Assembly (NCBI RefSeq): GCF_026151205.1
Contig: NC_087073.1
Location: 21,232,837-21,296,836 of the forward strand
DNA: 64,000 nt
DNA from: Bolinopsis microptera
Taxonomy: Eukaryota; Ctenophora; Tentaculata; Lobata; Bolinopsidae
Reading direction: 5' to 3'
The position numbers were made by a program, and so were the translations under genes. Each line of letters opens with the position of its first letter. The stretch's first letter is position 1. Positions 2,322 through 5,300 of the stretch are shown in pieces. The notes below the pieces were generated by a model. It was not told the DNA's origin. It saw only the letters and a program-made list of their open reading frames with translations, and made no database searches.

Positions 2322-5300
2322 ATGTCAAAGTTACGTAGAACTACTGGTCTTGGTGTGTTGATTATTCTTGTAGTGCTCGCTCTTTACCGCCACTACGGAT
2401 ACACGCCTGCAGATTTGGTAGGTGTTATATATACACAGTGTTAAATCAGTTACAATTATTAATTAAGCGTAATTAGATTCAAATTAGAGCTGAGAAAAGT
2501 TGAGAGCGCCTGCTTACAGGTCGTATTGGGCAGATTCTGTGGCATTCCTAAAATTTAGTAGTATTATATACTAAATGTAGTGCACCTCCAAGTAGTATTG
2601 CTTAAATCTAATGTGTGAAAGGTGGATAATACCTACTCAATTTTGCAGGTGGACACAGAAGAATCAGGCGAAGATGATTCAGTGTCTGTTCATTTCTACG
2701 AAGAAGAAAAAGTAGAAATTGTAGCACACTCTAATTCTAAACAGGTAGAAGAGAGGCAACATTTAAGTGCGGTGAAATCGCCGCACTTTTTGCACCATCG
2801 GCTGTTATTCTATTCTATTATATTATTACTCTAATTATTATTCGTTCTAATGAGATAATATCGACATAACTATTGTAGACGCTTATTTAACTGCGTACAA
2901 TGCGAGGCGCAGCCGAGTGCAAATTGATACAATAATGCCAATAAGGCCAAGTTCGATTTATAGCAGTTATTTCACGAGGCGCAGCCGAGTGTAATCGTAT
3001 TACTATTATACATTCAGCTAGATTCGCGTATACAGCGTGTTACAAGACTCGTGTCCAAATTTGAAATTATGATTTTTTATTTTATGAAGGAGTAAATTAA
3101 ATGAAATCGATCAGGAACCTCAGTTTAAGTGCACACTCAACTACTCCCTGCTACTAGAGTACAGTTTAAGACATTACGAGTGATTACGCAAGACACTTTG
3201 TTAGTTTATTGTCGTGTTAACTAAAATATACTATTCTGTTGAATAATCTGAAAACTTAAAGGATGAAAATTTGGCAACTTGTTCAGTTTAATTGTTTTCT
3301 GTCTCCAAATTTGCTGCGCACAAAAACGTTTTGGGCAGCTGTGATGAACTGTACATTTCCAAAATATTACTGCATTTACATGTTGCCTCTGCTATTGTGC
3401 CTGCTGTTACACTCTGAGGTAAAACGATTCAAACCGTGATTGGAAAAAATGTAACATTCAACTCAAATAAATTCGCCTGTTATACAGTGCGCGATGATTA
3501 GTGTATTATTTATATTTTGTTAAATTGTAACGTTATTATAAGATCTGTAAAATGATACTGTCAGGAGGAGAGCACCTCAAGTCAGGAAGAGAGCACAACA
3601 ACAGTTCCACTTCCACAAGATACGCTTAAAAACAGATGTTCTCATTCAAAGGGTATCCATGACAACGGGGCTGATCTTCAGGTCAGAGAAACTAACATAT
3701 TGACTCTGAAACACTGTAACTACATGTAGTGGAATCATAGTTAGAATTGGCGTTGAGATCTTGGTACCAGCAAATTTTGCGTTTATGTAAATTTTATAAT
3801 TTTCTAAATAGGAACTTTTTCAGGTGTCCGATTTGGTAGAAAGTCTAGAATTTCGGTCTGAAAATCCAGGTTCGTTTTTAATATTGCACTCTAGTAATAA
3901 CCTAATAACTATCCCGATCATTTCGTCTTTTGAAGAAAACAAATCTCGGAAAGTCTTCAACGTTAAGTTAAACATAATGTTTGTTTTATTATCAGAGACC
4001 GGACATTATCCTGGGTTGAAGCCGCTCCCGACTTCAGAGGAATTAACCGTCTTTCTAGTTCCACATTCTCATTGTGATCCTGGTAAGTTGCTCCCGACTT
4101 CAGAGGAATTAACCGTCTTTCTAGTTCCACATTCTCATTGTGATCCTGGTAAGTTGCTCCCGACTTCAAAGGAATTAACCGTCTTTCTAGTTCCACATTC
4201 TCATTGTGATCCTGGTAAGTTGCTCCCGACTTCAGAGGAATTAACCGTCTTTCTAGTTCCACATTCTCATTGTGATCCTGGTAAGTTGCTCCCGACTTCA
4301 GAGGAATTAACCGTCTTTCTAGTTCCACATTTTCATTGTGATCCTGGTAAGTTGCTCCCGACTTCAGAGGAATTAACCGTCTTTCTAGTTCCACATTCTC
4401 ATTGTGATCCTGGTAAGTTGCTCCCGACTTCAGAGGAATTAACCGTCTTTCTAGTTCCACATTCTCATTGTGATCCTGGTAAGTTGCTCCCGACTTCAGA
4501 GGAATTAACCGTCTTTCTAGTTCCACATTCTCATTGTGATCCTGGTAAGTTACTCCCGACTTCAGAGGAATTAACCGTTTTTCTAGTTCCACATTCCCAT
4601 TGTGATCCTGGTAAGTTGCTCCCGACTTCAGAGGAATTAACCGTCTTTCTAGTTCCACATTCTCATTGTGATCCTGGTAAGTTGCTCCCGACTTCAGAGG
4701 AATTAACCGTCTTTCTAGTTCCACATTCTCATTGTGATCCTGGTAAGTTGGTCCTGCTTTATGTTTATCTTTCTCTTTCTATTTCTGTTTCTCTTCCTTA
4801 ACCTCTATAACTACGGTGCTCATTACCTGGCCGCTCGATCATTTACTAAAGTTGAACAATAGATTTGTTATTAACCTGTTGAGTAGGGATCATCTATAAA
4901 GCATCTCCCAGGTTGGTTGTTACAATATGAAGAGTACTACGAGCAGAACGTGAGACATATCCTAACCAACTTCTACCAGTTCGCTATGCAACATGATGAC
5001 TTCAAATACATCTATGCAGAGGTTACTAACCTGTTTCCACCAAATAGCATATTTAAAATAGTCTTCTTCGTTTATTTTAACCCTCTTTCAACAGCTTCAA
5101 TTGCGACCTATGTTTTATTGATGTATTTTGTTAGAAATAGCAGCTGCTTCGTAAGTAAATTACCGAACTTTCCAGGTTTCATTTTTCAAGCTTTGGTGGG
5201 AGGAACAGAAGGAGAAAGTAAGAGAAGACATGGGTCGACTAGCTCGAGAGGGCAGATTCGAGTTTGTTCAGGGAGGATGGGTACAGAATGACGAAGCAAA

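Follow-up and report, generated by a model that had tools for sequence, protein, structure and literature searches.

The locus described here raises the question of what a cell makes of an enzyme gene in which the end of a catalytic exon, its splice donor included, stands eleven times in a row. It lies in a 64,000-nucleotide stretch of the Bolinopsis microptera genome (contig NC_087073.1, positions 21,232,837 to 21,296,836), which we call the window and whose first letter is position 1 of all coordinates below. On the plus strand at 4024-4749, 11 units of 66 bp each follow one another head to tail and nearly unchanged, as in a coding minisatellite; eight of the 11 are identical, there are five substitutions in total, and the TRF result (score 1420, 98% matches, 11.1 copies) puts the tandem repetition far beyond chance. 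The original prediction had reported these units, each with a GTAAGT donor, and the donor is indeed present in 11 of 11 copies. The two deviations that it listed are there as well: the CTTCAG of 10 copies is CTTCAA in copy 3, which has lost the AG (G to A at 4169, Glu to Lys if read through), and a C-to-T change at 4332 turns HSHCDP into HFHCDP in copy 5. Three changes in copy 9 (4552..4617), all silent in the read-through frame, had been overlooked. Two of the five substitutions are thus non-silent, a number too small to show constraint. Each unit amounts to 22 codons and is open, and the description of the locus as an in-frame array of splice sites of the minisatellite type stands. The anatomy at which we arrive is a different one, however: the locus is one acceptor followed by eleven identical in-frame donors, not a series of eleven microexons.

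The array sits in an intact gene of the GH38 alpha-mannosidase II type, for which a hand-built model (2322..12509, plus strand) gives 21 exons and a protein of 1066 aa with one copy of the repeat, with GT..AG at 20 of 20 introns and zero internal stops. The Pfam families PF01074, PF09261 and PF07748 (GH38 N, middle and C domains) score above cut-off on the ORFs that contain its exons, and the top PDB hits are entries called alpha-mannosidase 2 or II, among them 6rpc (E 5e-140), whose title gives Golgi alpha-mannosidase II. When the protein is aligned to 6rpc, D259 corresponds to the nucleophile D204 and D394 to the acid-base residue D341, roles that are taken from PDB titles, and H144, D146 and H531 correspond to H90, D92 and H471, which we take to be the zinc ligands; the chain offset of 12 used for 6rpc rests on these presumed ligand numbers. 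Judged by this alignment, the nucleophile, acid-base and zinc-ligand positions of the protein are kept, and the earlier assignment of the gene to GH38 and of the His-x-Asp to its first zinc motif is upheld by Pfam and by the PDB comparison. We also considered a loss of the catalytic acid (Asp to Asn in GYNSQSTCGP) and rejected it, as that position aligns with PDB residue 270 while the acid D341 is D394, which is kept. A second in-frame coding repeat (EDVKKKK, 21 bp x 2.8) is found in exon 12, in the middle domain, at 7114..7171 on the plus strand; it was not found in the protein relatives P0001-P0007. The same gene also holds a 71-bp x 3.4 array at 6550-6787 that starts 11 nt into intron 11.

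Among the matches listed, the best-matching named relatives of the protein are ctenophores: Mnemiopsis leidyi P0003 (58% identity) and P0007 (50% over 84% of length) and Bolinopsis microptera P0004 (62% identity over 84%). P0001 (61%), P0002, P0005 and P0006 group by identity with ctenophore proteins, and the source contig of P0001, with 3,462 nt, is probably a transcript because it is too short for a 10-kb gene. P0001-P0007 each have one copy of the array segment, which is a comparison of proteins in which donor 1 splicing with an intronic array would look identical. The first zinc motif pattern occurs exactly once in all 120 homologues listed of the 1285 found; among the same 120, four other homologues gave no match to the second zinc motif pattern. 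In the scallop Mizuhopecten yessoensis (P0011), it is the second zinc motif region that is repeated, with 5 QHHDG-like and 12 TAKDFVVIDYG-like matches, and this may be either a comparable event or an error of gene prediction.

The relatives locate the start of exon 5. The original prediction placed the donor of exon 4 after 3869 and the beginning of exon 6 at 4912, and both borders match our gene model, in which exon 4 (3824..3869, plus strand; VSDLVESLEFRSENP) is homologous in relatives and exits in phase 1 and exon 6 (4912..5021, plus strand; GWLLQYEEYYEQNVRHIL...) is entered in phase 1. Between them it took each unit to contain a whole 45-bp exon and a CTTCAG acceptor belonging to it, and this part was not confirmed. 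Read in the frame of exon 4, the 42 nt that begin at 3996 and close with the first CTTCAG encode ETGHYPGLKPLPTS, and P0001 has LKPLPTSEELTVFLVPHSHCDPGW unbroken; across the start of exon 5 it reads QYNGNLKPLPTSEELTVFLVPHSHCDPGW, with NLKPLPTSEELTVFLVPHSHCDPGW contiguous and TDHGQYNGNLKPLPTS running straight on into EELTVFLVPHSHCDPGW. The corresponding residues of P0006 and P0007 are DLKPLPFSQPLRV and DLKPLPNSESLRV. The short motif in this region is LKPLPTS in P0001, LKPLP in P0006 and P0007, and LQPLP, LQPIP, VAPLP and LAPLP in the other four, with PLP or PIP in seven of seven, and a match to NLKPLPTS at seven or more of its eight residues occurs at one of 127,948 positions in the six frames of the window, which is exon 5 itself. 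Because the residues upstream of it are common to the proteins of the relatives, CTTCAG must be an internal part of the native exon, and on this homology the 45-bp microexon with a CTTCAG acceptor is rejected. Copies with an acceptor each, as in tandem exon duplication, are therefore not what we find, CTTCAG being coding in the native exon. By homology, exon 5 is a single-acceptor exon of 87 nt (3996..4082, plus strand; ETGHYPGLKPLPTSEELTVFLVPHSHCDP) behind the acceptor TTTGTTTTATTATCAG (3980-3995, plus strand, AG at 3994-3995) with phase 1 entry at 3996, and the array unit joins its last 59 nt to the 7 nt with which intron 5 opens (GTAAGTT).

It is homology and not the acceptor matrix that decides where exon 5 starts. 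The matrix was built from 19 of the gene's own acceptors and is noisy: it gives 2.7 to 3996, 0.1-3.2 to the intact CTTCAG sites and -3.4 to copy 3, while CTAG sites inside the copies score 3.0-3.6, above the true acceptor, and 12% of the window's AGs reach the score of 3996. As a means to separate true from false acceptors it was consequently discarded. CTTCAG may nevertheless act as a cryptic acceptor. The earlier view that the 21-nt spacer between a donor and the next CTTCAG is too short for an intron is likely to be correct, as the shortest modelled intron has 96 nt; were CTTCAG to serve as acceptor, a copy could be joined to the next but one through an 87-nt intron (21 + 66), which is near that length.

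Behind the one acceptor stand 11 donors, all of them open, which is the layout of alternative 5' splice sites. Donor 1 (CTG/GTAAGT, plus strand) is at 4083, the spacing from one donor to the next is 66 bp, and donor 11, the last, is at 4743; with it comes the native rest of intron 5 (4743..4911, plus strand; 169 nt) with its U-rich start. Among the gene's 20 donors, CTG/GTAAGT has the top leave-one-out matrix score (9.5) and ranks fourth by U1 pairing (-9.1 kcal/mol). From donor 1 to donor 11, exon 5 lengthens from 87 to 747 nt and intron 5 shortens from 829 to 169 nt, while each further donor adds 22 residues to the protein, which has 1066 aa with the first and 1286 aa with the last, all 11 versions being stop-free. 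Every choice of donor keeps the frame since the unit is 22 codons and open, and the earlier statement that any acceptor can be paired with any later donor was confirmed for 66 of 66 pairs. A product that is read through would carry ...DPGKLLPTSEEL... in its sequence. Skipping exon 5 would also be in frame and would give 1037 aa without the zinc motif.

Which of the donors is used can be argued both ways, and we expect splicing mainly at the two end donors, since the native short exon is found with donor 1 alone and the native intron context with donor 11 alone. We give close to an even chance to a main product that is spliced at donor 11, with 11 copies and 1286 aa; that donor 1 is the main site and the enzyme an ordinary one is possible but rather unlikely, and a broad ladder of donors is a little more doubtful still. 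Over +7 to +56, the sequence after donor 11 is 60% U, compared with 34-36% after donors 1-10, and 0.09% of the window's 50-mers are as U-rich. The range after the gene's donors is 12-60% U, however, so a donor of this gene can do without U-rich sequence. At the junction of units 1 and 2 a hairpin of -8.2 kcal/mol includes the donor and recurs at units 2/3, compared with -1.3 kcal/mol around donor 11; its strength is ordinary, with 39 of 200 shuffles as stable. For donors 1-10 the probability that the 9 nt of the donor are unpaired is 0.0001-0.0019; donor 11 has 0.0072, and the donor in a one-copy context 0.0075. Of the 19 other modelled donors of the gene, 8 are as inaccessible as donors 1-10 (<=0.0019). 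The 169-nt intron from donor 11 is near the gene median of 190 nt. Among equal donors, the intron-proximal one is generally favoured. With exons of 46-413 nt and introns of 96-1091 nt in the gene, the products of donor 1 (87-nt exon, 829-nt intron) fall inside its range, whereas no other exon of the gene would be as long as one of 747 nt. A stronger version of the preference for donor 11, in which the junction hairpins hide all donors but the last, so that ten extra repeats are included and the length of the protein tracks the length of an individual's array, seems unlikely to us but not far-fetched.

Whichever donor is chosen, GWLLQYEEYY, the native continuation, always follows directly on the final copy of the product, and the GH38 domain is therefore complete, with strand 1, zinc motif and barrel contiguous. 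The extra copies enter between LKP and LPTSEE. P0001 was modelled with AlphaFold2 from a 20-row alignment (mean pLDDT 78.3), and there the insertion point falls in a coil at 149-173, with pLDDT below 50 at 154-160, and a strand at 174-182 follows, so that on this model extra copies would lengthen an irregular loop before the first barrel strand. It is plausible that the enzyme would tolerate them. The original prediction held that, if the gene makes a ladder of isoforms, most of them would be catalytically dead, and this does not follow, because the domain stays complete and the additional copies are placed in a loop. In a medium-confidence model of the 11-repeat peptide by itself each repeat is predicted as one strand (mean pLDDT 63.5, from a single sequence without alignment), and ten extra hydrophobic strands could cause misfolding.

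As to how the array arose, a recent repeat expansion is most likely, rather than an evolved device, and a minisatellite that crossed an exon border by chance is the simplest account. A stretch over the border of exon 5 and intron 5 (59 + 7 nt) would have been tandemly duplicated, and the duplicate would have grown by slippage or unequal exchange to 11 near-identical copies, a growth that would have multiplied GTAAGT eleven-fold behind a single acceptor. The extra copies would lengthen the loop before strand 1, leave the barrel with its zinc His-x-Asp complete and presumably be tolerated, and the array is most likely neutral, with a length that would vary between individuals. We hold it to be probable that the anatomy of one acceptor and eleven donors and this neutral origin are jointly correct; the choice of donor is judged separately, so this joint reading overlaps with the possibility that donor 1 is the one in use. 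The DNA fold of one unit was rejected as a cause of the expansion since it is not better than that of shuffles (163 of 200 as stable). The setting is rich in minisatellites, and in-frame coding repeats also occur in exon 12 of the gene and in a channel-like ORF at 39430-41676. Twenty-five arrays, picked by hand from 66 TRF rows with 1- and 2-base runs, overlapping rows and many small ones left out, cover 18% of the bases of the window, and in 11 of the 25, among them the 66-bp array, the period is a multiple of 3. An open unit with a period that is a multiple of 3 is for this reason not by itself a sign of selection.

Four other explanations were weighed. Splicing could occur almost always at donor 1, in which case copies 2-11 would be a plain intronic repeat without effect on the protein and the anatomy would be the same. 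The ordinary exon and intron lengths that result, the fact that donor 1 is transcribed first and the single motif copy in the 120 relatives listed all agree with such splicing, but all 11 donors are identical in sequence, and donor 1 sits in the junction hairpin without the native U-rich sequence downstream; we rate it as possible, on the unlikely side. Eleven complete 45-nt microexons, each with an acceptor and a donor, would explain why CTTCAG precedes 10 of 11 copies and why all 66 pairs are open, and the CTTCAG acceptor score is not clearly below that of the true acceptor. The mRNA would then be without the coding sequence of ETGHYPGLKPLPTSEELTV. The residues upstream of CTTCAG are, however, common to P0001, P0006 and P0007, so that CTTCAG is exonic; we regard these microexons as very improbable.

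Little more can be said for a selected, length-variable linker, a functional VNTR that tunes the stem or Golgi retention. An open unit that is a multiple of 3, an insertion that the model places in a loop and the second in-frame repeat in exon 12 speak for such a linker, but framing is cheap when 11 of the 25 chosen arrays of the window are divisible by 3, the two non-silent changes among five are too few to show constraint and P0001-P0007 have one copy, which leaves it a slim chance. An assembly artefact, with fewer copies in the animal, is similarly improbable: near-identical copies are easily miscounted, but copies 3, 5 and 9 carry private marks, and other arrays of the window reach up to 2.4 kb, which suggests long reads.

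Repeats and other features elsewhere in the window were recorded as well. A 749-aa ORF at 39430-41676 that matches Pfam Ion_trans begins with four copies of the 11-residue NRGRSCPIDMG (33-bp array at 39465-39598), and a 21-bp array at 59658-60558 holds 36 GTRAGT donor-like sites on the plus strand. Two long arrays at 33747-37050, with periods of ~177 and ~170 bp, have consensus units that share CCTGACGTCTGAAGACTTTGAAAC as reverse complements and look like inverted relatives. At 20504-22891, a 45-bp x 53 array has long open frames of 595 and 628 codons on the minus strand, perhaps a by-product of its period. Two minus-strand ORFs at 15685-17776 match the AMP-binding enzyme family PF00501 and are probably exons of one ligase gene, and an ORF at 28043-29371 matches the reverse transcriptase PF00078 and is part of a retroelement.

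With eleven identical donors at steps of 66 nt, a native gene offers a natural experiment on the choice that the spliceosome makes among equal sites: the sequence of the site is constant, and what varies from donor to donor is its position, the lengths of exon and intron and the local structure. The locus also indicates how a catalytic exon can take up a repeat while the enzyme need not be destroyed: when the 3' end of the exon is duplicated, one complete motif always stays joined onward. Population variation in the array, if found, would link the length of a DNA repeat to the length of a protein through splicing.

Compared with the Golgi alpha-mannosidase II enzymes (MAN2A1/MAN2A2 and Drosophila dGMII), the comb-jelly gene has the same domains and the same zinc and catalytic positions, and the modelled fold of P0001 resembles theirs; unlike them, it has the end of exon 5 and its donor eleven-fold and extra EDVKKKK repeats in exon 12. 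The predicted scallop protein likewise has tandem copies of a GH38 zinc-motif region within one protein, but it is the other zinc motif that is repeated, the copies are more diverged and the protein is a database prediction. With coding minisatellites (VNTR) the array shares recent, near-identical units and a period that is a multiple of 3, but its unit crosses an exon/intron border, so that splicing and DNA together determine how many copies the protein has. Introns are known to arise when a segment with splice signals is duplicated in tandem, and here too a donor and an AG stand at each junction, although the 21-nt interval is likely too short and a join over two units needs 87 nt. Alternative tandem 5' splice sites, finally, also combine one acceptor with several in-frame donors at a fixed step; the known cases typically have two or three sites, whereas the array has 11 identical donors that stem from tandem duplication and lie 66 nt apart.
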